Assembly: GCA_900696645.1 (NCBI GenBank)
Contig: CAADGV010000007.1
Location: forward strand, 62,001-126,000
Origin: an uncultured Chlorobiota bacterium
Lineage (GTDB): Bacteria; Bacteroidota; Ignavibacteria; UBA10030; UBA6906
Direction of reading: 5' to 3'
DNA: 64,000 nt
Position 1 is the stretch's first letter. The number at the start of each line of letters is the position of its first letter. Positions 41,283 to 64,000 of this stretch are shown here, piece by piece. A model generated the notes under the pieces. It saw nothing but the letters and a program-made list of their open reading frames with translations, made no database searches and was not told the origin of the DNA. The position numbers and the translations under genes are program-made.

Positions 41283-41313
41283 CCGAAACCTGTCGTTTCA
41301 GGCTTGATTTCGG
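41283..41313 (+). terminator. Hairpin downstream of the GH13 gene, abutting the prophage terminus
   Basis: CCGAAACCTG pairs with CAGG and, past a 5-base bulge, TTTCGG. The predicted prophage terminus (TG at 41314) follows immediately, and there is no T-tract. If the terminator was intact before integration, its T-tract may lie on the other side of the element. Confidence 0.4.
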
Positions 41314-41323
41314 TGGGGGGAGT

Positions 41324-41519
41324 CACTCCATTCGCGCGACGTGTCAGTAGCACATCCCTTTGATTTCTTTACACTTACAGCGTTTTGTCCATCTCACTCA
41401 AAGTGAGAATAATGTCACTGCTCCGAGAATTTTGGCCGTCGCGTTCTCACTCAATTCGCGCGGGGAAATCCAACGGCGCCCGTAACCCATTGATTTTCAA
41501 AGCCCGCGCGAATCAAGTG
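41324..41519. promoter_or_regulatory. Three transposase-binding-site-like repeats at the prophage terminus
   Basis: CACTCCATTCGCGCG (41324-41338, plus), CACTCAATTCGCGCG (41448-41462, plus) and CACTTGATTCGCGCG (41505-41519, minus) share 13 of 15 positions. Aligned with Mu end sites as I recall them, the CAYTnnA and CGCG positions coincide. Two direct and one inverted copies near a terminus parallel the multi-site Mu ends. Confidence 0.75.
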
Positions 41520-41966: not shown

Positions 41967-43055
41967 CTACCCTGTTAATCGGTAGGCACCAACGTACGCC
42001 GTTGTCGACATTGATGCTTGGCGCTCAGCGAGGTATCTCTCGAACGCCTGCCTTTCCGCATTGAAGACGTCGCTCAAGTTGAACTTGTCGCCCGTTTGAA
42101 GTCGCTTCAATGTGTCGTTGTCGATCTGGTAGAGATGCAGATGTTGAGCGCTGCACCGGCAATTGAATGACTGCCCTCCTCCTTCGCCATTTCGCAGAGG
42201 CGGGTACGGGCCTTCACCTACACGGTAGATGTTATCGTTCAACGCTGCATGCTCAGGCCTCGTTGCCGAATCAAGGATCGAAACGTAACGCCAGAACGGG
42301 AAGCGATCCCGCATTTGGTCGATCTGCTCGAGTTGAGCGACAGAGTAAGACGTGAAGATGTTTGTTCGAAAGACATTCTGCAGCCGATGCGGTGCAAGTC
42401 TCGTAGCCTTGAACTTTTCGAAGAGCTGATCGGCCTTCGCCCTCCATTCTGTCCATGTTTCACCATTCCTCAATGCCTCTTCGAGAGACTTTTGAACGGA
42501 TTTCAAAAGCTCGTCGTTTTCAATTCCCGCAATCCAGAATGCCTTCTTGCGCATGTACTCGGCTGCGTATTCCGGCACCAGATCAAACGAGATCTTCACG
42601 CGTTCATCCTTGCATGCAAAAACTCCTGCTTGCTTGAACGCCAGGACAGTACCGTCAACATTGAACCTTGCTGCAGCTGCTCCCTTGCGTGAGGAAAAGA
42701 AGACATCCTTGTCGGCAATCAAAGTGCGGCCGAGACTGTCGGCGAGTTCCAGAGCATCCTTCAGCGTTTGCCCGAACTCTACAATGAACTGCATGTCCAC
42801 TCCGGCTAGCTCAGCACGTCTGTGTGCATCTTCAAATGAGATTGCCGAGTGAATCACCTCCAATACGTGATTGACGAGCCGGTTGTAGATTGTCGCCGAA
42901 TGTGCTGTGGCGTTCTCGCTTATCGAGTCTACTTGCTCGGCATATTGTCGGTCAGGGAATCTCACCAGATTTGCTCCGTGTACCTGTATCCTCGAAAACC
43001 CCTCATTGGCAGCGGCGAGTTCGGAAACACCATCGGTCCAGTGCAGATTGCCCAA
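41967..43055 (-). CDS. Mu F / SPP1 gp7-like head morphogenesis protein
   Basis: A 362-residue protein reading with a TTG start. The N-terminal two thirds are helical, and the C-terminal third contains the gp7/F family signature: FRTNIFTSYSVAQLEQIDQM, RYVSILDSATRPEHAALND and the closing NGEGGGQSFNCRCSAQHL, a Cys-x-Cys motif. These minor head proteins join the portal and take part in capsid assembly. It normally precedes the protease/scaffold and capsid genes, but here only cargo and the prophage terminus follow. It overlaps the upstream 120-residue gene by 94 bases. Confidence 0.82.
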   Translation of the reverse strand: MGNLHWTDGVSELAAANEGFSRIQVHGANLVRFPDRQYAEQVDSISENATAHSATIYNRLVNHVLEVIHSAISFEDAHRRAELAGVDMQFIVEFGQTLKDALELADSLGRTLIADKDVFFSSRKGAAAARFNVDGTVLAFKQAGVFACKDERVKISFDLVPEYAAEYMRKKAFWIAGIENDELLKSVQKSLEEALRNGETWTEWRAKADQLFEKFKATRLAPHRLQNVFRTNIFTSYSVAQLEQIDQMRDRFPFWRYVSILDSATRPEHAALNDNIYRVGEGPYPPLRNGEGGGQSFNCRCSAQHLHLYQIDNDTLKRLQTGDKFNLSDVFNAERQAFERYLAERQASMSTTAYVGAYRLTG

Positions 43056-43324: not shown

Positions 43325-43416
43325 TTCTTTCCCCACTTCCATCCGCACATTTTACATGTATCGCCGGGCTTCATCTGTTGCAGTCGTTGCCCGCATCGTT
43401 TGCACCACTTCCTCAC
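43321..43416 (-). CDS. Com-like small zinc-finger protein
   Basis: A 31-residue protein too short for standard gene calling. Its GTG overlaps the portal stop and its own stop overlaps the next GTG. It carries two CxxC pairs, KWCKRCGQ and TCKMCGW, 13 residues apart, followed by WKWGKK. In Mu, Com is a small CxxC-CxxC zinc protein that opens the mom mRNA for translation, and many Mu-like phages encode such a Com. The fold match is good but the function is inferred. Confidence 0.65.
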   Translation of the reverse strand: MRKWCKRCGQRLQQMKPGDTCKMCGWKWGKK

Positions 43417-44747
43417 TTCAACAACTCCGCTTTTGTTCCAAGAAGTCCTTTGAACGCAGCTGATTGAAACGGCACAGTCTGCTGCGCTGGCTGAAGGGTC
43501 GGCTCGCCCTCCTTGGCGATTGGACGCCCGTAGAATTCAGATGCATACTGTTGCGATAACGGGAACCCCATTCTCACCAGCGCTTCATCCACTGTGACAG
43601 AGAGCTGCAAATCCTTCGGCTTCTCGATCTTTGTCTTGAAATACGGATAGACCTCTTGCTCGCCAAAGTTGAACATCACCAACGGTAGGATGAACTGATC
43701 GGTGATGATGCCATCCATGGCCAACGCATCTGCCTCGACAAGATCAAGCCGAATCTCTTGAGCTGCATTCTCATTCCCCAACTTGCCGGGTGTCGACTGG
43801 ATCGTTCCGGTGTGCCCAAGGACTGCTTTGCTCTGCCAATCATCCATCCGGTTCAACACGCTGTCGTAAATGTTGACAGTCGTTCCCTTCTGTGCCGGTT
43901 CCGGGAACTCGATCTCCGTATTCTTGCCGATCACGGCTCCGGCATCTCTGGCGAGGCCTCGAATGGCGTCGGTTAGAACTTCAATGTCCTTCTCCCGCGT
44001 CGGTGAAGTTTCGTCATATTTCCCTATGCGGAGAGGAATGCCAAAGATCTCGCAGAAGATCATCAATGACTTTGTTCCGCCGTTCTTAAAGAGGTACGGC
44101 CAGGCGCATGAGCGTGAGATCGAGGTACGGGAGGGATACCCTGATCGGGATTTGATGAGTGCAACAATCCACTTGTACGGTTCGAGGTCAACACCGTTGG
44201 TTCGGTTCTCATCGGTAAGCCGTCGAATCTCATTCAGGTTCGATTTGAGGTCGCTAGCTCTTCCAAACCGGAAGTTCTTCTGATGAACCCACTCGAATCC
44301 CTCGATCCCTACCTGCCCGCCGGCATCGATATTCCACAGAATCTGTTGAACGCTGTAACCCTTCGCCACTGCATCCAGCAGGTCTTCCTGGAAGCGACGC
44401 CACGTCTTGCACCGCTCGACGACTTTGCGAACGAACTCAGCAATCTTCTTGTCCTCAGGCGTGTCCGCTCCGGGGATGATCTCGTACTGCCATTTCAGTA
44501 CCGCTTGTCGTCGACTCTGGAAGAGCGCACCAAGGTGTGCGTCCTTCTCCTGCATCTCTTCGAACAATTCCATCTGTCGGTAGACATCACCCTGGTCAGC
44601 CTCTTTGCAAATCTCAGAGAGACGCAAGGGGGTCAACCCATGCGATGGATAGCTGCCGTATTTGTCCAGCAGCGTAACAACGTTGATCACGTCGAGGGGT
44701 GGACGGAGTGGACGTTTCTTCTTTGGGGTTACTAGTTCAATGGGCAT
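43413..44747 (-). CDS. DUF935 portal protein (Mu gp29-like)
   Basis: A 444-residue portal protein forming the ring through which DNA enters the capsid. Typical DUF935 segments are LFEEMQEKDAHLGALFQSRR near the start, the WNIDAGGQVGIEGFEWVHQK middle region and IFCEIFGIPLRIGKYDE with the following ALIRGLARDAGAVIG-like helix. It is preceded by CGGAGAG. The neighbouring terminase lies upstream, separated by four small genes instead of abutting as in Mu. Length is slightly under the family norm. Confidence 0.9.
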   Translation of the reverse strand: MPIELVTPKKKRPLRPPLDVINVVTLLDKYGSYPSHGLTPLRLSEICKEADQGDVYRQMELFEEMQEKDAHLGALFQSRRQAVLKWQYEIIPGADTPEDKKIAEFVRKVVERCKTWRRFQEDLLDAVAKGYSVQQILWNIDAGGQVGIEGFEWVHQKNFRFGRASDLKSNLNEIRRLTDENRTNGVDLEPYKWIVALIKSRSGYPSRTSISRSCAWPYLFKNGGTKSLMIFCEIFGIPLRIGKYDETSPTREKDIEVLTDAIRGLARDAGAVIGKNTEIEFPEPAQKGTTVNIYDSVLNRMDDWQSKAVLGHTGTIQSTPGKLGNENAAQEIRLDLVEADALAMDGIITDQFILPLVMFNFGEQEVYPYFKTKIEKPKDLQLSVTVDEALVRMGFPLSQQYASEFYGRPIAKEGEPTLQPAQQTVPFQSAAFKGLLGTKAELLK

Positions 44748-46210: not shown

Positions 46211-46393
46211 TCAATTCATCGCCTTTTGTTTTTGTGCCTTCATCTTCTTTCGCACTCTGTAGTCCAATCGCTTGTCACGCAACACGAAATAGCATCTTCC
46301 GTTTCTCGACATCCGCACATCGAAGCCAAGGAGTGCCGAGAGTTCAATCCACCAGGTTCGCAATCGTGCCCCGAACGGAATCGGTGTGTTCAT
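46211..46393 (-). CDS. Small basic hypothetical protein
   Basis: A 60-residue basic protein (FGARLRTWWIELSALLGF; CYFVLRDKRLDYRVRKK). Its ATG overlaps the large terminase stop (TGATG), so it is translationally coupled to it. No family recognised. Phages often place small connector or accessory genes here. Confidence 0.5.
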   Translation of the reverse strand: MNTPIPFGARLRTWWIELSALLGFDVRMSRNGRCYFVLRDKRLDYRVRKKMKAQKQKAMN

Positions 46394-48045
46394 CAATAGG
46401 TTCCTTCCTCAAATGACATCTCTCGCTTTGTCACGCTGCGATAGTTGACTTCGCCGGTACCCGGATAGTCCGTAACCAACGTCACGGCACCTTCCAGCGC
46501 ATCAGATCCGTCGTCGCCGACTCCCCCGACATTAACCGGTGCCGGATTCGGCTCTGCTTTCAACTGCCGCATTAACAAGTCCTGATCGGGATCATCTGGG
46601 TCGAATGTGACGATGGCGTCTTTCACTAACGGAGCGAGCCGCGCTATTCGTCCCCGCTTGTTGCCTACCTGCTTGATCGGGAAGAAGGGGAGAGGCCTCT
46701 TCTTCTTTGCCATGAACCGGCGATACTCACGCTTCACAAAATCCTCGTACATGTTGTCTGCAACGCCGACACGAATTGATTTGAACACCACGAAATGATC
46801 CCATGAACGTTCCAGCATCCAATCAACCCCTTGCTGTTGTATGTCTGCCTTCAACACAGGGATATGCAACTTCTCTTCAATCACTCCGACGCCGACGGTA
46901 ACGACTGCTTTGTTGTCACCCGTTTCGGTCCCGGACGGATCGACAAACGTGAAGACATCGTACTGACTCAGGTCAAGGTCCTTGAGACGATGAAAGCGGA
47001 ACCAGTGGTCGTGGAAAATCTTCCCCTTACGCTTGCGGGGACGCATCATCATTTCGCAATCGTGCGTCTCCGGGTCGTTCTTGCGGTCTTCAAGCTCCTG
47101 GATTGTCGGGTGACGGAATTGCCAAGTACTTTTCTCGTTTGTCGGAAACCCAGCCTCTCGGCATGCACGCGCAATCTCACGATCTTGCTTCGTTTCAAGT
47201 GGGTTTGGTTCGAGTACTCTGGTGATCACCTTTTTGAAATGCTCGGTGTGTCTGCCCCGCATCAGGCGGTCGGTGATGTCATCCTCAACAGTCCAGTTGC
47301 ACAACATGATGCCGCTCCAACGGGGGGCGTTCACACCCTTCATCACACTCTTCTTCACCCAATCAACCTTCTGCTCGACAACAGCGGGAGAGTCCGGCAG
47401 ATCAGGATCGGAAATGTCATCAATAACGAAGTGGTCGTATCGGTGTCCGTTCACTTCCTCGCCTCGCAGCGATTGGTCCCTACTGAGACCTTTGAAGGCC
47501 CTTCCCGTGCTGGTGACAATGAACCCGTTTTCCCATTGCCGCTTCCCGACCAGATCGCCAAAGTCATTCTTCAGACGAACATTTTCCTCGAACTCGATCT
47601 TCAGCGGAATGATTTTCGACTCCGCTTTCTTCTCCGTCTTGGCGATGATCGGAATATACCAGCGCTCTTCGAAGACGACTTTCCAAATTGGATCGATCTT
47701 GCCGAGAAGAGTACTTTTCGCACACCCCCGGAAACCTGCAAAGAGCGTGAACACTTTCAGCACGTCGGCCAGCCGGAAGTACTCCTCGTGGAACTTTGCA
47801 AACCCTGCGTCAAACCAATCGATCTCTGCTTCCGGAGTTTTCCAGACCTCTTTGTACTCAGGCTTGAGTTCGATGTAGTGGGGAAAATAGGTCGCGGCAA
47901 AGAAGAGCTTGTCAACTTTTGCACGAGCTACGCGGGCCCGGCGCTTTGCCGGCGTATCGTTTCTAAACGGCGTAACATCCCGTCGAACACGGTTTAACAG
48001 CTCTTCAAACTGCTCAAAGTATTCCCGTTCGGTGATGAGTGCCAT
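46393..48045 (-). CDS. Large terminase subunit (Mu gp28-like)
   Basis: A 550-residue packaging motor. The N-terminal ATPase domain has an adapted Walker A (LFAGFRGCAKSTLLGK) and Walker B/DEAD-like segment (HRYDHFVIDDISDPDLPDSP). The C-terminal RNase H-like nuclease contains VFTFVDPSGTETGDNKAVV and the later acidic residues GDDGSDALEGAV. Length matches Mu gp28 (about 550). It packages phage DNA, in Mu by a headful mechanism. Its ATG overlaps the stop of the small terminase-like gene. Confidence 0.9.
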   Translation of the reverse strand: MALITEREYFEQFEELLNRVRRDVTPFRNDTPAKRRARVARAKVDKLFFAATYFPHYIELKPEYKEVWKTPEAEIDWFDAGFAKFHEEYFRLADVLKVFTLFAGFRGCAKSTLLGKIDPIWKVVFEERWYIPIIAKTEKKAESKIIPLKIEFEENVRLKNDFGDLVGKRQWENGFIVTSTGRAFKGLSRDQSLRGEEVNGHRYDHFVIDDISDPDLPDSPAVVEQKVDWVKKSVMKGVNAPRWSGIMLCNWTVEDDITDRLMRGRHTEHFKKVITRVLEPNPLETKQDREIARACREAGFPTNEKSTWQFRHPTIQELEDRKNDPETHDCEMMMRPRKRKGKIFHDHWFRFHRLKDLDLSQYDVFTFVDPSGTETGDNKAVVTVGVGVIEEKLHIPVLKADIQQQGVDWMLERSWDHFVVFKSIRVGVADNMYEDFVKREYRRFMAKKKRPLPFFPIKQVGNKRGRIARLAPLVKDAIVTFDPDDPDQDLLMRQLKAEPNPAPVNVGGVGDDGSDALEGAVTLVTDYPGTGEVNYRSVTKREMSFEEGTY

Positions 48046-48515
48046 CAGCGTTTCCTGTACTTTTTGTTCATTTCCTCACCGAATCGGCTGAGATGGGGAA
48101 TGATTTGCTGCAGGAGTTCCGGGTCTTCAGCATCCATGAACTCTGTAAATTCCTTCGTGAAGGCGAGGATGTACGGGTACATGTGTTGACCCTTTGTGAG
48201 CCGCTCGGCCATTTCGTACAGCGCTTTTAGTGCATACACTTCCTGCGCGTCGAGCTTGTTGCCGGCCTGAATCTCATCAAGCAGCTTGCCGAGACGTGCG
48301 ACCGAGGTTTGCAGCATCTTGTTCGCGTTGGCGGTAGGTGTTGCCCGGAATGCCTCACGGTCTTTGTCCCAGTCCTTTCCTGCATGCACATCTTCTTGCT
48401 TCCAGCGATACAAAGTCTTCTCCGGCACTTTGAGCAGTTCGGAGATTTCCGGAATCTCCTTCATGTCCTGGACGTAGAACATGTAGGCATCATTGCGTTC
48501 AAGTTTCCGTGCCAT
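48045..48515 (-). CDS. Small terminase-like protein (Mu gp27 / DUF1804-like)
   Basis: A 156-residue protein beginning MARKLERNDAYMFYVQDMKE with GAGG five bases before the ATG at 48515. The N-terminal helix-turn-helix (IPEISELLKVPEKTLYRWKQ) is followed by a helical oligomerisation region. In Mu-like phages the gene before gp28 encodes such a DNA-binding terminase partner that recognises the packaging start. Confidence 0.78.
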   Translation of the reverse strand: MARKLERNDAYMFYVQDMKEIPEISELLKVPEKTLYRWKQEDVHAGKDWDKDREAFRATPTANANKMLQTSVARLGKLLDEIQAGNKLDAQEVYALKALYEMAERLTKGQHMYPYILAFTKEFTEFMDAEDPELLQQIIPHLSRFGEEMNKKYRKR

Positions 48516-48524
48516 CATCACCTC

Positions 48525-48571
48525 AAAAAAGAAAGAAGCCGAGCATCCCAAACCGGGACACTCGGCTTCTT
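48525..48571 (-). terminator. Strong terminator before the terminase genes
   Basis: AAGAAGCCGAG pairs perfectly with CTCGGCTTCTT over 11 bp, with a second inner pairing, followed on the minus strand by TTCTTTTTT. It lies directly before the small terminase ribosome site, so late-gene transcripts must begin or be antiterminated here. Confidence 0.85.
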
Positions 48572-49056: not shown

Positions 49057-49794
49057 TCAGACCTTCAATTCACAACGAGTGCAGAGTTGAGTCCAGTCGA
49101 ACATGCAGTGTAGGTCTGACTTGTCCGGTCGCACCATGGAGTGCGGCAGAACACCACTGAACGCGACGGCCACGCTTTCGTTGACACCGCTCATGTGTTG
49201 TTGCGGTGTGCGCCGCATGATCGTTGTAAATTGTTTCAACAGTTGCTCGACAAGCTCGTACAGCGATTCAAGCTGTGGCGGGTCGTATCTGTCGAAGAAA
49301 GAGTATGAACGCCACGGTGTCCCAAGATGCCAGAACTTTTTCCCATCATTCGCGACATGGTAGAGTCGCTTCGCATTTTTGAACCACTCCGTTGCAGCAG
49401 CACGCGAGCGGTCGATGTCGAAAGCGTAGAGATACTCAGGATCGAAGCGAGCCGGTGCTCCACTACCTTTTGCAATGTTGTTCAACTCGGTCCCGGAGCG
49501 CAACGCTCCTTCGGAAGCAAGCTCAATGCCGATTGATTGCTTATTGCACTGAACGTTCTGCGGGATCTTCAGACCAAGATGATGCGCCCAATAATGCGGG
49601 TCGAATACTTCGTAGACGGTGCCGTCTCGCTCGATGATGTACGCTGTGGCGACTCGCTCGGCTGTCGATTGCCAATACTTGAATGTGCTTACTGCACTTC
49701 CTCCAACGGTATGATGGAGGTACAGCTGCGTCTTCGGGACAACGTCCCGATAGTACTGATCAGGACTCAGTCGCAGAGTTCGATTGATGTTCAT
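49057..49794 (-). CDS. N-acetylmuramoyl-L-alanine amidase (endolysin)
   Basis: A 245-residue amidase-2-type enzyme. Zinc ligands and catalytic region can be read as YLHHTVGGS (first His), HYWAHHLG, SIGIELASEG and, near the C-terminus, LHCMFDWTQL (His and Asp). It cuts the amide bond between N-acetylmuramic acid and L-Ala for host lysis. There is no signal peptide, so it needs a holin. It occupies the lysozyme position of Mu. Confidence 0.82.
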   Translation of the reverse strand: MNINRTLRLSPDQYYRDVVPKTQLYLHHTVGGSAVSTFKYWQSTAERVATAYIIERDGTVYEVFDPHYWAHHLGLKIPQNVQCNKQSIGIELASEGALRSGTELNNIAKGSGAPARFDPEYLYAFDIDRSRAAATEWFKNAKRLYHVANDGKKFWHLGTPWRSYSFFDRYDPPQLESLYELVEQLLKQFTTIMRRTPQQHMSGVNESVAVAFSGVLPHSMVRPDKSDLHCMFDWTQLCTRCELKV

Positions 49795-55347: not shown

Positions 55348-55848
55348 CTATTCTTCCGAGAGCTTTGCTTCATTGAACGTGAAGTACGGTTTGTCCTTCG
55401 ACTGCGTCAGCCTCAATCCGAATCTCGCCAGCTTTTCAGCAGGCAGATTCAGGGCTCTGACCGCGTCTTTGATGTAGCTGTAAGTGACCTTCGCGCAATG
55501 TTTGAACGACGGAGATTTGAGCAACAGCTTCGCCGTATCGTCCTTGGTAAATCCCTTCAGTTGTGTAAGTCCGGGACGTGAGTCCTCAATGCCGATTTTG
55601 CCGTAGAGGAGGTCAATCGACTTCTTTCCTTCCCGGCAGATTTCCTTCTTGTTCTTCTTGATGTAATCAAGCAGCTCCGATTCGACGAGAGCGTACCGGG
55701 CCGAGAGCGGAGCCGTGACCTCCAGCGATTTCTCTTTCAACTTTTCGATTGCATCGTTGAGGATGACCTCCTCCGCGGCGATGTCCCTCTTCAAACGGTA
55801 CAAATCCTTGATGGCGTCGTTAGCCTGGTTGAGGCTGGCAATTGACAT
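55348..55848 (-). CDS. DUF3164-type phage protein (Mu-like early gene)
   Basis: A 166-residue protein starting MSIASLNQANDAIKDLY behind GGGGGAAC. The middle (EKLKEKSLEVTAPLSARYAL) and the end (LPAEKLARFGLRLTQSKDKP) match DUF3164, a family found next to MuB-like and GemA-like genes in transposable phages. Function is unknown, possibly nucleic-acid-related. It overlaps GemA by 29 bases. Confidence 0.7.
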   Translation of the reverse strand: MSIASLNQANDAIKDLYRLKRDIAAEEVILNDAIEKLKEKSLEVTAPLSARYALVESELLDYIKKNKKEICREGKKSIDLLYGKIGIEDSRPGLTQLKGFTKDDTAKLLLKSPSFKHCAKVTYSYIKDAVRALNLPAEKLARFGLRLTQSKDKPYFTFNEAKLSEE

Positions 55849-56437
55849 GATGTTCCCCCTTTGCGGTATGTTGATTTGGTTGCGTTGCGGAAGAATCCGG
55901 GCTACCACCTAAGACGCGATGCGGTGTCTCTGCGATGGAGGGCACCGACCCATTGTCCGGATTCTTCGTGCGACGCGTGAACGTTCTGAATTCAAAAAGT
56001 TCTGTGTGGGTGAGAGTACGTTTCCCCGTTTCGTGGTTACGTTCGATCATGGCGACCATGGCGAGAATAACCTTGCGCAGCTCGGCTGTACTGCACTTGC
56101 GGGTGTCGTCCCAGCCCGTAATGCGCTTGCAGAGATTCGACACAGGCTGCCATGAATCCCAACCGAGATACTCCATGAGGTGAGGAATGATCCGCTGCTG
56201 CGAGGCAATGCCGGAAGCGTGCTGGTCACGACTCTTCGTCGGCGGCCGCCCAGCCGCGGAGTGGAATCGTCGTAACGCGACCAGCACGTTTTCCAGCTCG
56301 CTCAGCGGAAGGCCCTTCACTGAGCGCTTTCCCGTGACCTGCTCCACGATGTCGCGGTAGAGCTCATCATCAAGTCCCACCTGTTGCTTGATGATGTGGA
56401 TGTCACGGACAGCACGTGTATAGGTAAGTTCTTTCAC
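55820..56437 (-). CDS. GemA-like regulator (gp16 family, DUF1018)
   Basis: A 205-residue protein with a GTG start. The N-terminal region (IHIIKQQVGLDDELYRDIVE; GKRSVKGLPLSELENVL) is the DUF1018/gp16 pattern. In Mu, GemA affects host gene expression and DNA gyrase during lytic growth. Here the C-terminus carries a disordered tail (SSATQPNQHTAKGEH). It lies two genes after MuB, the usual place. Confidence 0.75.
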   Translation of the reverse strand: MKELTYTRAVRDIHIIKQQVGLDDELYRDIVEQVTGKRSVKGLPLSELENVLVALRRFHSAAGRPPTKSRDQHASGIASQQRIIPHLMEYLGWDSWQPVSNLCKRITGWDDTRKCSTAELRKVILAMVAMIERNHETGKRTLTHTELFEFRTFTRRTKNPDNGSVPSIAETPHRVLGGSPDSSATQPNQHTAKGEHHVNCQPQPG

Positions 56438-56657: not shown

Positions 56658-57632
56658 CTACATCATTGCCTGCGCGTTGCGGATATGCTCCTCGTCGATT
56701 CTGCTGGAATCGGCGCTCAACATGAAGTCGTATGCCAGCGTCATCAGGTCAAACACGCCCCGGATGCCTGCACGGTTTGCAGAATCATCGTTCGCCCATT
56801 CACGCAGCTTGCGGATCTCCGAGCGGTCGAGATCATGAGGGAACTGCTTCACTATGGAAAGGATGTCGGCATCGCTCATCTCCTGAACGCGGATGCGCAC
56901 GGAGATGCGTGTATCGACGTAGCGAAGGTTCCGTTTCGGGTCCCGCAGGATGCCTTCGAGATTTGTCGTGCCGATGAACGCGACGGCGCAGCGTCCTTCT
57001 ATATCGCCCCGGATCGTTTGTAGTACTTCGAGGAATGAGGGCTTCAGGCGGTCCGCCTCGTCGATGATGATGAGCCGTTGCTCGCGTTGCAGATGCCGGA
57101 TGATCTCTCCCTTCAGCCAGCCGTTAGGTCCCTTCACATCCTCGACTCGTTGATAGAGGTTGAGACTGACTGCGATGCGGGCGAGGAGATCGTGCAAACG
57201 GAATGTTGCATCGAGAATCAAGTACACCGTATGATCCTGGTGCCGTCTCCAGTAGTCGAACGCTCCGAATGTTTTGCCTCGCCCGTTGTCGCCGATGATG
57301 AGACCCATGCGCCGGCGCTTCCAGATCAGGTCGAGCCCGACGTTGATGTCCTTGACCGATTGCAGTTCCAGAATTGTGTTCTTCGAGATCCAGCTCAGCC
57401 AGAACCTTGTGGCAGCCTGCTTGAAGTCTGCGGTATCGGCGCCGTACTTGTCGTTGAGGATTTGGCTGACCGTCGAGGCAGCGTAGCCGGTTGCCTGCGC
57501 AATTTCTTTGTGCGATACATCGCCGTCATCGACTGCTTTCTTGATTGAGTCAAGAACGTGTTCCGGGTCCGTAGCGATGCGAGGATTGAGTTGATCCAGG
57601 TATGCGAGTTTCATTGCAGCGTTGCTTTTCAT
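56658..57632 (-). CDS. MuB-like AAA+ ATPase
   Basis: A 324-residue protein starting behind GGGGGG. Residues 36-75 hold an HTH (VSHKEIAQATGYAASTVSQI), as in Mu B. Walker A is GDNGRGKT near residue 110 and Walker B is RLIIIDEADR near residue 187, with a sensor-like IGTTNLEGIL. MuB binds DNA in an ATP-dependent way, selects targets, gives target immunity and activates the transposase. It follows the transposase with three small genes between. Confidence 0.88.
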   Translation of the reverse strand: MKSNAAMKLAYLDQLNPRIATDPEHVLDSIKKAVDDGDVSHKEIAQATGYAASTVSQILNDKYGADTADFKQAATRFWLSWISKNTILELQSVKDINVGLDLIWKRRRMGLIIGDNGRGKTFGAFDYWRRHQDHTVYLILDATFRLHDLLARIAVSLNLYQRVEDVKGPNGWLKGEIIRHLQREQRLIIIDEADRLKPSFLEVLQTIRGDIEGRCAVAFIGTTNLEGILRDPKRNLRYVDTRISVRIRVQEMSDADILSIVKQFPHDLDRSEIRKLREWANDDSANRAGIRGVFDLMTLAYDFMLSADSSRIDEEHIRNAQAMM

Positions 57633-57978: not shown

Positions 57979-58169
57979 CAATTCCTCTGCGATTCACTTA
58001 GCCGGCTGATCACCCTGCGCTGCTCGAAGCGCACCCTTATGTATGGGTCGCTTGGGTTCTTCGATAGCTCGATGTAGATCAGAAGGTCGCTATCTTCCAA
58101 CTCGACTTGATAAACCTGCTCCGGCAGGATGCGCACTGCGTGCCTCAGTGTTGGTTCGGTCTTGTTCAT
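57978..58169 (-). CDS. Small hypothetical phage protein
   Basis: A 63-residue beta-rich protein (HAVRILPEQVYQVELEDSDL; LIYIELSKNPSDPYIRVRFE). Coupled to the transposase by ATGA overlap. No family recognised. Confidence 0.5.
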   Translation of the reverse strand: MNKTEPTLRHAVRILPEQVYQVELEDSDLLIYIELSKNPSDPYIRVRFEQRRVISRLSESQRN

Positions 58170-60166
58170 CGCAACTTCTCCACGTTAATGAGGTTGAGTG
58201 GATTTCCCTTGATCGTCTCTTCCTTCTTCTTTTCGACCTCTTCTTTCTTCATCTGCTTGGCAAGTTCTTGGTGGAACTTTCTCGCTTCGGCTTCGATGCC
58301 GGTCAGTTGCAGTACTTTCGGCGCCGCTGCCGCTATCATCGTGCGTTCGACTTTGCTGATGTTCTGAATCTCGGCGTTGAAGAGTATGGCACGCGCTTCA
58401 TCGCTGGTGATGCCTTCGCGTAGCGAGCGAATCTCGTCGGCGAGGTCCCTGTTCTGACGTTCCCGCTCCTTCACGAAACGCATCCAATCGCGCTCCGTGA
58501 CTCCGAGGAGTTTCTTATCCACTGCAAACGTGATGAAGTCCGCGCCGATATAGACGGCAACGCGCCCCACATTCATCGGATCGTAGTACAGCGTTGCCTG
58601 CTCGCCGTTGTAGGGATCGAGATCCATAGAGAAGTACTCGGCGCCGAGAAGCTTCACGTACCCGCGGCGGATGATGCGTTTCTCGACTTTCATCATCAGA
58701 ATGTTGAGCACGCGCTCGTCGATGTAACGCATGCCCGCGCTGTTCATCATGTAGAATTGCAATGGCGATACGTTACCGAGGGATTTGCGCGGCCGGTTGT
58801 TCACCATGTTCACCGCAAGCTGGAAGAGAGACCGGTACTCATCTTCGTACAAAATGAGACCCGCTTTCACCTGTGCGCTTAGATCATCCGGCTTCTTTGA
58901 GTAGTTACTGCCTTTGAAGCCGGGCAAGTATTTCAACACCTTTTGGATGATCGCGAAGGTTCCCTCGACCGTGCCCTTGCTTTGTGGATGACGTCTCTGT
59001 GTGTGTTCGAGCTTGCAGAGCAACTGCACCTGATTGCGCACGTCATCTTCAAAATCGATTTTGCCGATCACTTGACCTGTATACCTGCTCTTGTAGTCTT
59101 TGCCTCTGTCGTAATAGAGCTTATCGCATGCGTCAACAATGTTTGCCGGTTCATATTTCACATCGGGACCCGAACCGACTGCCGCAAAGAGTTGTGTGCC
59201 GAGAAACGCGTTGCGTGTGCACAGTGCAATCGTCTGGCTGCTCGGCGTATATGCGTGCACGTAGCCCTTAATCAGTCCGGTGCGTCGATCAACCAGCATC
59301 GTTGACCAAAGGGGAGCGATCTTGCCATCGCGGCGGTAAACGATGGTCACGTCCTCCGTATGATCGCCTTCAAGTACTCCACCCGGTCGGTACTCATCGT
59401 CAGGGCGGGAGATGTAAATGCGGTCAGTATCGCGTTCGCTTTTGCTCATGCGCGAGCGCTTGATGGCAACGTTCGTTTCGCGCTTGGTGGAGAGAAATCT
59501 GATGACGCTGGACATTGACGGCAGGTCATCCACAGTGGCAACATCGTTGGTCGCTTCGTTCAGCACACGTTGTTTCCTGCACGCATCGGCGAGGGCGAGG
59601 TAGCAGCTCTTGGCATTGTGTCCGGGACGCGAATAGAGTGCGATGAGAAATGCCTCGGCGTCCAGATACTCACCGGTTTCCTTCACGACGATCAAACCGC
59701 GGGCACTGCGCAGTTCCCCCGTGTTGCTTGGTGACTTCCGGACAACAATCTGCGCGAGCGCCTGCTTGATTTGTGGATGATGAGCCAGCTGATGGATGGG
59801 TTGTGCCGTCGGGATGCCATAGAGATCACGCAGCTGGGCTTTGTAGCGCCGTTGCGTGCCGGTCGGGATGCTGTACGTGCATGCAACCCGCATCTCGGTA
59901 GAGAGGATGTCTTTTTCTGCAGCAATCGACTCCAGCATAGCGTTCACTTTGGTCATCACATCATCGGTCAACTTCTCGGCGGGGATAAGCGGAAGATCGA
60001 GGGGAGCGGAGACCGTAGGGTCGGCCGTCTGTTCTTCGATCCACACTTCCGTCTTTCCCATCTCATTTTTCTGACTCATCACTTTCTGGTGCTTCATCAT
60101 TCTGAACAGGTGCCGTTCAGAGACCCGCAATATGCGAGCGGCTTCACTGAATGGAATCCAAGTCAT
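58166..60166 (-). CDS. MuA-type DDE transposase
   Basis: A 666-residue transposase, close to Mu A (663). The N-terminus has an HTH (FSEAARILRVSERHLFRMMK), fitting end-site or enhancer binding. The RNase H-like catalytic core holds the acidic triad Asp near 264 (GVLEGDHTED), Asp near 352 (YYDRGKDYKS) and Glu near 399 (QSKGTVEGTF), spacing like Mu A's D269-D336-E392. A beta-barrel region with RKSLGNVSPLQFYM follows. It should cut and join the phage ends, including the sites at 41,324-41,519. No obvious truncation. Confidence 0.92.
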   Translation of the reverse strand: MTWIPFSEAARILRVSERHLFRMMKHQKVMSQKNEMGKTEVWIEEQTADPTVSAPLDLPLIPAEKLTDDVMTKVNAMLESIAAEKDILSTEMRVACTYSIPTGTQRRYKAQLRDLYGIPTAQPIHQLAHHPQIKQALAQIVVRKSPSNTGELRSARGLIVVKETGEYLDAEAFLIALYSRPGHNAKSCYLALADACRKQRVLNEATNDVATVDDLPSMSSVIRFLSTKRETNVAIKRSRMSKSERDTDRIYISRPDDEYRPGGVLEGDHTEDVTIVYRRDGKIAPLWSTMLVDRRTGLIKGYVHAYTPSSQTIALCTRNAFLGTQLFAAVGSGPDVKYEPANIVDACDKLYYDRGKDYKSRYTGQVIGKIDFEDDVRNQVQLLCKLEHTQRRHPQSKGTVEGTFAIIQKVLKYLPGFKGSNYSKKPDDLSAQVKAGLILYEDEYRSLFQLAVNMVNNRPRKSLGNVSPLQFYMMNSAGMRYIDERVLNILMMKVEKRIIRRGYVKLLGAEYFSMDLDPYNGEQATLYYDPMNVGRVAVYIGADFITFAVDKKLLGVTERDWMRFVKERERQNRDLADEIRSLREGITSDEARAILFNAEIQNISKVERTMIAAAAPKVLQLTGIEAEARKFHQELAKQMKKEEVEKKKEETIKGNPLNLINVEKLR

Positions 60167-61506: not shown

Positions 61507-61749
61507 CTACTGTACCTTACTAAGGCTGACTCCCCTTACAAGATCATGAATCCGGCCGCGAAGGTCGGGTAATTGTTCAGTCCAGAGTGCCAAATAGATC
61601 GCATGCCGTGAGACCCGCTTTCCATCTTTGTTCTGCAAACGTTTCATAAGGAATGCGTACCCGATGCCACGTTCTTCCATCATGAACCTGATCCGGCGCC
61701 CCAGCTTGATGCGCCTCTCCTTTTCTTGCGGCTTTAACCTTTTTGGCAT
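61507..61749 (-). CDS. Small HTH-type early regulator (Ner position)
   Basis: An 80-residue basic protein starting at the ATG at 61749 (the upstream part of the open frame crosses the operator region and is rejected). It reads EKERRIKLGRRIRFMMEERG then KDGKRVSRHAIYLALWTEQL, a likely DNA-binding helix arrangement. It is the first gene of the early strand, divergent from the repressor, the position of Ner in Mu, which turns down repressor and early transcription. Confidence 0.6.
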   Translation of the reverse strand: MPKRLKPQEKERRIKLGRRIRFMMEERGIGYAFLMKRLQNKDGKRVSRHAIYLALWTEQLPDLRGRIHDLVRGVSLSKVQ

Positions 61750-61763
61750 AAATTCGACGTGAA

Positions 61764-61840
61764 AGTATTTACTAAATGATGCTAAGGGCAATATAAAGTA
61801 TCTACTTTCAAAAGTCAAGTACTTTCTTACAGTGTCTACT
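61764..61840. promoter_or_regulatory. Three evenly spaced operator-like repeats between the divergent regulators
   Basis: AGTATTTACT (61764-61773), AGTATCTACT (61797-61806) and AGTGTCTACT (61831-61840) fit the consensus AGTRTYTACT. The first two have perfect inverted AGTA/TACT ends. Their starts are 33 and 34 bp apart, about three helical turns, so bound dimers would lie on one face of the DNA. They are the likely repressor or Ner operators controlling both promoters. Confidence 0.75.
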
Positions 61841-61851
61841 ATATACGTGAT

Positions 61852-62259
61852 TTGAGCTACAGCAACGAGGTCGCACATCGTTTCCGAGAGGTTGTCGATC
61901 AACATGGTGGGCCGTCGGCATTTGCACGGCTGATCGGGAAAAGCCCACAGACCTTAACGGATTATTTGGCAGGTAAAACACTTCCTGGGAATAAGCTGAG
62001 AGCTGCAATCCGTGAAAAACTGGGGGATGAGCTTGAGTATTACATCATGTATGGAACCCGCGAACAAAGGGATGCACAACACGAGAAAAATGCAGAAACG
62101 ATCTTCCGCAATAGCGGTTCAGAGAAGGCAAGAATGCTGGACGTGATTGAGAAGCATGGGGTTCTCACTGCCGAACAGTTGGATCGTATCCTCGAAGCAC
62201 GGCATATGATGTTGCATGAACCGAAACTTCGCTACAATCCGAAAGGGAAGAAGAGATGA
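61852..62259 (+). CDS. Phage repressor (XRE/CI-like)
   Basis: A 135-residue protein reading from TTG. The N-terminal domain is an XRE-type HTH (EVVDQHGGPSAFARLIGKSP; QTLTDYLAGKTLPG). The C-terminal part is helical (LDVIEKHGVLTAEQLDRILE) and could mediate oligomerisation. Placed divergently to the transposition genes, next to the operator repeats, it should keep the prophage silent. No LexA-like peptidase domain is present, so SOS cleavage is unlikely. Confidence 0.8.
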   Translation: MSYSNEVAHRFREVVDQHGGPSAFARLIGKSPQTLTDYLAGKTLPGNKLRAAIREKLGDELEYYIMYGTREQRDAQHEKNAETIFRNSGSEKARMLDVIEKHGVLTAEQLDRILEARHMMLHEPKLRYNPKGKKR

Positions 62260-63503: not shown

Positions 63504-64000
63504 ATGACAGCAAGAAAAGCCGGAGGTGCCACAACTGCAAGGCCAAGAAGGAAGGCGAGAACGGAAACGCGAAGAACGCCAAGCCGGCCTTTGAATCGAA
63601 GCCTTAGCGCCGCAAAGGCATCGAAGCAGGATGAGTTTTATACCCAGCTATCCGACATTGAGAAGGAGCTCCGGCACTACACGGCGCACTTCAAGGGCAA
63701 GACTGTCCTGTGCAACTGCGACGATCCCAAGGTCAGCAATTTCTTTCACTACTTCTCGCACAACTTCGAGAAGCTGAAGCTGAAAAAGCTGATCACTACT
63801 TGCTACAAGAATTGCGACGCCGATCTGTTTAGCAAGCACACGGATGAAAGAGGAATCTTTCTCGAATATAACGGCGACAAGAGTGGCAACCGCGTCCCCG
63901 ACCCGGAGGAAATCGGTATCCACCAGCTAAAAGGCGACGGCGATTTTCGCAGTGAGGAATGCATCAAGCTGCTCAAGCAAGCGGACATAGTAGTCACAAA
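63504..64000 (+). CDS. EcoRI-type adenine-specific DNA methyltransferase (3' end outside window)
   Basis: An open frame from 63504 to the window end. After a basic N-terminus of about 40 residues it reads KQDEFYTQLSDIEKELRHY, GKTVLCNCDDPKVSNFFHYF and DADLFSKHTDERGIFLEYNG, the beginning of the EcoRI-methylase family (m6A). The last bases give LLKQADIVVT, immediately before the expected NPPF catalytic motif. It would protect phage or host DNA from restriction. No restriction endonuclease is seen next to it. The start has no strong ribosome site. Confidence 0.85.
   Translation, partial: MTARKAGGATTARPRRKARTETRRTPSRPLNRSLSAAKASKQDEFYTQLSDIEKELRHYTAHFKGKTVLCNCDDPKVSNFFHYFSHNFEKLKLKKLITTCYKNCDADLFSKHTDERGIFLEYNGDKSGNRVPDPEEIGIHQLKGDGDFRSEECIKLLKQADIVVT

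Follow-up and report, generated by a model that had tools for sequence, protein, structure and literature searches.

Comparative sequence analysis identifies position 41314 of the window, a stretch of 64,000 nucleotides (contig 7:62001-126000), as the left end of a complete transposable (Mu-like) prophage, 41,933 bp long with TG...CA ends. We consider it very probable that the TnsB/MuA-type transposase of this prophage joins its target with a 4-bp stagger, as in the whole clade to which it belongs. Direct observations in the genomes compared are the termini, the end sites with their spacing, the empty site and the 4-bp duplications of four elements.

Ends and extent of the element

An earlier note, drawn from the letters of the window, had deduced a Mu-like terminus at 41314 from three 15-mers, the outermost lying 10 bp inside a TG, and had predicted a far end with a CA terminus and inverted copies of the 15-mer. 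All three repeats are exact (Table 1), the TG is in place, and the far end was found, through its sequence alone, downstream of the window at contig 7:145246, 19 kb past its edge. This matching end, together with the empty site described below, bears out the predicted terminus. With a slash at the joint, the left junction reads ...GATTTCGG/TGGGGGGAGT-CACTCCATTCGCGCG and the right end reads ...CGCGCGAATGGAGTG-CGAATTTACA/TCGGTCATTTT. The first right-end site (R1) begins 10 bp inside the CA terminus (nt 11) and the second (R2) lies 22 bp further in (nt 33). A degenerate left-end site at nt 82 had been overlooked in the earlier note.

Allowing at most one mismatch, a search of the 4,206,806-bp genome gave five matches to the 15-mer pattern CACTNNATTCGCGCG, three at the left end and two, inverted, at contig 7:145222-145236 and 145200-145214. 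The 15-mer is thus specific to the ends, a search of the 4.2-Mb genome for many copies elsewhere having found none beyond these two places. When the two 210-bp ends were shuffled with their composition preserved, matches of at least 11/15 averaged 0.08, against five observed. Just inside R2, at about nt 55-80, lies an operator-like imperfect palindrome, TTGACANATTGTCA (own copy GTGGACACAATGTCAT), which is conserved in the right ends of this element and of the related elements G093 and G028 and is absent from that of G209.

Table 1 Features of the element within the window, in window coordinates.
Feature	Position	Strand	Evidence or remark
Left TCGG target-site duplication	41310..41313	.	right copy contig 7:145247-145250, outside the window
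Left terminus TG	41314..41315	+	right counterpart CA at contig 7:145245-145246 (window-equivalent 83246); empty site in G057
L1 transposase-site repeat CACTCCATTCGCGCG	41324..41338	+	nt 11 from end; 15-mer scan, shuffles
Degenerate second site CACTCAAAGTGAGAA	41395..41409	+	nt 82; same position in relatives' left ends
Left-end site CACTCAATTCGCGCG	41448..41462	+	nt 135 (relatives 120-155)
Inverted left-end site CACTTGATTCGCGCG	41505..41519	-	nt 192-206
Mu F-like minor head protein	41967..43055	-	PF04233
Portal protein	43413..44747	-	PF06074 Portal_Mu
Terminase large subunit	46393..48045	-	phrog_38
Putative terminase small subunit / DNA-binding protein	48045..48551	-	phrog_756
N-acetylmuramoyl-L-alanine amidase, likely endolysin	49057..49794	-	
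Mu Gam-like protein	55348..55908	-	PF07352
Mu GemA-like protein	55820..56437	-	PF06252
MuB-like AAA ATPase, DNA transposition protein	56658..57632	-	phrog_296
DDE transposase	58166..60166	-	Mu-transpos_C, phrog_310; D268, D353, E401; TnsB/MuA fold
ORF at divergent switch between arms	61507..61905	-	family match: none found
Repressor-like HTH protein, opens rightward arm	61852..62259	+	
EcoRI-type adenine methyltransferase, start (runs past window), cargo	63504..64000	+	

Empty site and insertion loci

Comparison with an empty site in a related genome, proposed in the earlier note as a check, succeeded. A second species of the genus (G057) carries an uninterrupted stretch, 86% identical over 489 bases, that runs from the GH13 gene through GATTCCGGTCATT to groES. 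Since this genome is unbroken across the joint, the phage inserted between the GH13 gene and groESL, immediately upstream of an apparent groESL promoter. This promoter-like stretch and its CIRCE-like inverted repeat (contig 7:145247-145330) are intact, the phage end lying only some tens of bases away. The hairpin that had been placed behind the GH13 gene is a weak candidate (z = -1.7).

Three further complete elements were compared, in genomes that, like the others used, are mostly metagenome assemblies, with empty sites taken from sister species. The G028 element has an empty site in G029 at 92% identity. The relatives of G093, G090 and G092, are continuous but have indels near the site, and the G209 joint is spanned by none of the relatives checked. 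All four complete elements are intergenic, and three directly precede a gene (groES, uvrB and a TetR-like gene). A preference for promoter regions and a bias towards surviving insertions are both possible explanations of this siting.

Gene content and classification

The genes form two diverging arms. The leftward arm comprises A-B-GemA-amidase-terminase-portal-F, where F lies 0.65 kb inside the left end, and the rightward arm, which starts mid-element, comprises protease-head-tail; the products of the element include protease I, the major head protein, a scaffold-like protein, a head-tail adaptor and neck proteins. The transposase gene of the inverted A-to-F arm therefore sits mid-element, far from the end sites on either side. 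Where the arms diverge, two overlapping ORFs on opposite strands (61507-62259), one of them repressor-like, probably provide lysis-lysogeny control. A cargo segment (contig 7:125504-127659) encodes the EcoRI-type adenine methyltransferase and, after it, a GmrSD_N/HNH nuclease; the two may form a pair for restriction-modification or against competitors, and head and tail genes follow beyond the nuclease. At the right end of the element, a SpoIIAA-like ORF (L008:4699-5100, minus strand) runs antisense to the late genes.

These features can be set against those by which Mu-like phages are recognised. A DDE transposase and a MuB-type ATPase are present, as are GemA, the portal and other conserved phage proteins; the genome lies within about 35-42 kb, and each end has several transposase-site repeats, inverted between the ends, with TG...CA termini. 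The flanking duplication is 4 bp in all four elements, not 5 or 6 bp. With every other tested feature found, the element is classed as a variant of the transposable (Mu-like) phages. It lacks the colinear map of Muvirus, in which the repressor, A and B stand at the left end and the late genes all read rightward. It shares with KS10-type phages the inverted F-portal-terminase arm with F at the left end, but not the transposition genes in the rightward arm, A and B reading leftward here with terminase and portal.

The element is found in a single copy in its genome, as would also be expected of a dead remnant kept by chance; we consider this unlikely, since the hallmark genes (head, terminase, portal, tail-side) are open and both ends and the duplication are intact.

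A 4-bp target-site duplication

The right flank reads CA/TCGGTC, and the direct repeat beside the intact TG and CA ends is TCGG, 4 bp long. The 5-bp duplication TTCGG predicted in the earlier note has to be abandoned, since the five bases flanking the left end are TTCGG but those flanking the right end are TCGGT. The other complete elements gave the same length: ATGA in G093 (38,210 bp), TTAA in G028 (41,076 bp) and CTGG in G209 (36,819 bp), where a chance 4-mer match would occur at 1/256 per element. When scored without the duplication, the ends of our element and of the G093 and G028 elements rank first. The left end of G209 was fixed before its right end was located; the ends escaped a generic blind scan because the left and right sites of this element differ.

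Read in the same way, three E. coli Mu prophages yielded 5 bp (TCCAT, ATCTG, TTCAT), as did three distant relatives, prophages of Desulfotruncus, Paenibacillus and Clostridium (ATAGC, GGATC, ATTTT). In published work, Mu makes 5-bp and B3 6-bp duplications (PMC8705779), and Citromicrobium phages make 5-bp ones with the consensus NYSRN (PMC12486242). In our literature search, which covered open papers only, neither a 4-bp repeat in a transposable phage nor a description of a 4-bp stagger for such phages was found.

We also weighed a 5-bp stagger as in Mu, with one terminal T of a TG end replaced by or overlapping the target in each element. Once a terminal T is assigned to the host, a 5-mer shifted by one nucleotide matches on one side in all four elements (TCGGT/TCGGT in our own), an outcome with a chance of about 0.44 per element and 0.04 for all four. 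Such a reading needs an element end that has lost one base of its TG. The shifted base is on the left in our element and in G028, but on the right in G093 and G209, and TG opens each of the eight termini in the four complete elements. With TG...CA intact, every pair of 5-mers differs (TTCGG/TCGGT, ATCAT/TCATC, TTTAA/TTAAT, ACTGG/CTGGC), whereas the same reading gave the clean 5-bp repeats of Mu and the three distant relatives. We regard the shifted 5-mers as coincidence; they are the single weak point on the duplication length.

The target bases at 13 left ends bear on both lengths. They read Y-Y-R-N beside the TG, with YR at -3/-2 in 11/13 (p about 1e-5). Y at -4 occurs with R at -2 in 12 of the 13, which is also the register of Mu NYSRN. 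R is found at -1 in only 6/13, so that the consensus is not fully symmetric about the centre of a 4-bp target. As a sequence pattern, Y-Y-R-N agrees with a target of 4 bp that has YR at its centre, although the mirror preference is missing at -1. Taking these observations together, we judge the 5-bp stagger improbable and retain the 4-bp duplication. As the four elements occupy four separate deep branches within one clade, this length is probably ancestral, the clade's transposase most likely having inherited its 4-bp footprint from a common ancestor.

The transposase

D268, D353 and E401 are invariant across the sequences of 67 relatives. A structure model built from these 67 sequences reached a mean pLDDT of 82; a first model, from five sequences, was too poor for use (pLDDT 53). 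The best structural match of the model was CAST TnsB (ShCAST, Z 22.4), followed by Tn7 TnsB and the Mu core (Z 18). A sequence profile likewise found TnsB (1.5e-25) and did not find MuA, which was recovered by profile comparison alone (hhalign, 21% identity, E 1e-5) and so falls short of the close MuA homology of Muvirus. By profile and predicted fold, the transposase is closer to CAST TnsB than to MuA. The link to MuA drawn in the earlier note is accordingly looser than it implied, although the Mu-like end itself stands. Residues 1-45 form a winged-helix-like domain, which G009 also has and several relatives lack; it is a possible counterpart of MuA's enhancer-binding domain.

The matches to ShCAST TnsB (1.5e-25 by sequence, Z 22), the best among solved structures, could suggest a Tn7/CAST-like transposon and not a phage. 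This is very improbable, as terminase, Mu-type portal, F, protease, major head and head-tail proteins, Gam and GemA are present, and none of the scanned proteins was recognised as the product of a TnsA, TnsD/Q or Cas gene.

Family and relatives

The transposase family has 17 members in one clade with 100/100 support. Close relatives have 34-41% transposase identity, and the inverted-arm map is common to those examined as far as their contigs reach; distant relatives keep the colinear Mu gene order. Left ends were read just beyond F in 13 family members, mostly as TGTARGGGRT followed by a CACATTA-type site, and the left ends of further relatives lie 0.3-0.65 kb beyond F. In all four right ends that were read, R1 starts at nt 11 and R2 at nt 33. 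The earlier note had aligned the 15-mers to Mu sites by CAYTnnA and CGCG. The geometry holds family-wide, but the CACTnnA...CGCG letters are not kept across the family and, from the ends compared, are specific to our own element; conserved in all are the terminal TG, the 10-bp offset and the 22-bp step.

A scan of viral contigs with a single protein found no relative, but an alignment query did. The IMG/VR contigs have left ends, with no right end that could be paired. No further family members were found in a phylum-wide search of 395 genomes, and the order of G209 contained none beyond the two already known. No clear ends emerged for distant members in the same class (G132, G237, G293, G370), and among open papers we found none on Mu-like prophages of Ignavibacteria. 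We are fairly confident that these elements form a distinct transposable-phage clade, mainly from Ignavibacteria-related bacteria and environmental viral contigs, with a 4-bp stagger and an inverted A-to-F arm.

That the repeats are host regulatory or chance repeats, with the element boundary elsewhere, has a negligible probability: 15-mers with three mismatches occur throughout the window at chance level, but exact and one-mismatch copies lie only at the ends of a 41.9-kb block absent from the sister species, with the same arrangement in relatives, and while the genome-wide count and the shuffles rule out chance repeats or a host repeat family, the empty site refutes a boundary elsewhere.

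Proposed mechanism and significance

Binding, end pairing, chemistry and replicative growth are proposed by homology to Mu and Tn7. The TnsB/MuA-type DDE transposase, helped by the MuB-like ATPase, would bind L1 and the inner left sites, and the same protein would bind R1 and R2, 22 bp apart, at the right end. It would pair the two ends and cut beside the terminal CA-3'. The ends would then be joined to the host target with a 4-bp stagger, and gap repair would produce the 4-bp duplication, here TCGG.

The length of a duplication reports the spacing of the two active sites on target DNA. Lengths of 5 and 6 bp serve to recognise transposable prophages (PMC8705779), and a clade that makes 4 bp would therefore be overlooked or wrongly trimmed. 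A single enzyme superfamily would include members with 4, 5 and 6 bp, a spread also seen in retroviral integrases, and the determinant of the stagger can be tested through close relatives. Exact ends also allow mini-element tools for the poorly tractable Ignavibacteria-related bacteria.

Comparison with known systems

We compared the element with Mu (AF083977), against which the Mu end sites used in the earlier note proved right. The scan placed the left-end sites of Mu at nt 11, 116 and 156 and its right-end sites at nt 11, 33 and 56 (inverted), with CGCG at positions 10-13 of R1. The positions of L1, R1 (nt 11) and R2 (nt 33, 22-bp step) are identical in the two phages and both have TG...CA ends, while our left sites are at nt 11, 82 (degenerate), 135 and 192 (inverted) and our right sites at 11 and 33. 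The inverted site is thus at the left end here and at the right end (R3) in Mu. Both have a MuA-like DDE transposase, a MuB-like ATPase, Gam, GemA, a Mu-type portal, F and I. Mu differs in its 5-bp duplication, its colinear map from the left end and a transposase only remotely similar to ours.

Burkholderia phage KS10 (NC_011216) resembles the element in having F at the left end, portal and terminase leftward and the genes from the head protease onward rightward; its transposition genes read rightward and its transposase is 24% identical to ours. Its 15-nt end sites and 22-bp R1-R2 step are also alike (PMC2628397). The KS10 authors remarked on the split capsid genes (PMC2628397) and reported neither TG...CA ends nor a flanking direct repeat. 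In the KS10 record, the sites start from nt 11 at both ends, the second right-end site is at nt 33, and the termini are AG, not TG.

The phage collection compared did not include BcepMu. D3112-group transposases were the most numerous phage matches to our transposase. Pseudomonas phages B3 and D3112 are transposable and have TG...CA ends like our element. The D3112 transposase is about 23% identical to ours and, by its positions in the record, is read inward close to the left end. B3 makes a 6-bp duplication (PMC8705779), against 4 bp here.

The solved structures closest to our transposase are those of TnsB from type V-K CAST (7svw, 8aa5) and from Tn7. TnsB comes from Tn7-like transposons, not from phage. 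Tn7-type elements make 5-bp duplications. The Mu-like prophages of Desulfotruncus, Paenibacillus and Clostridium have a transposase of the same superfamily and the same portal (about 40% identity in Desulfotruncus and Clostridium), but unlike our element they have 5-bp duplications and the Mu-type gene order.
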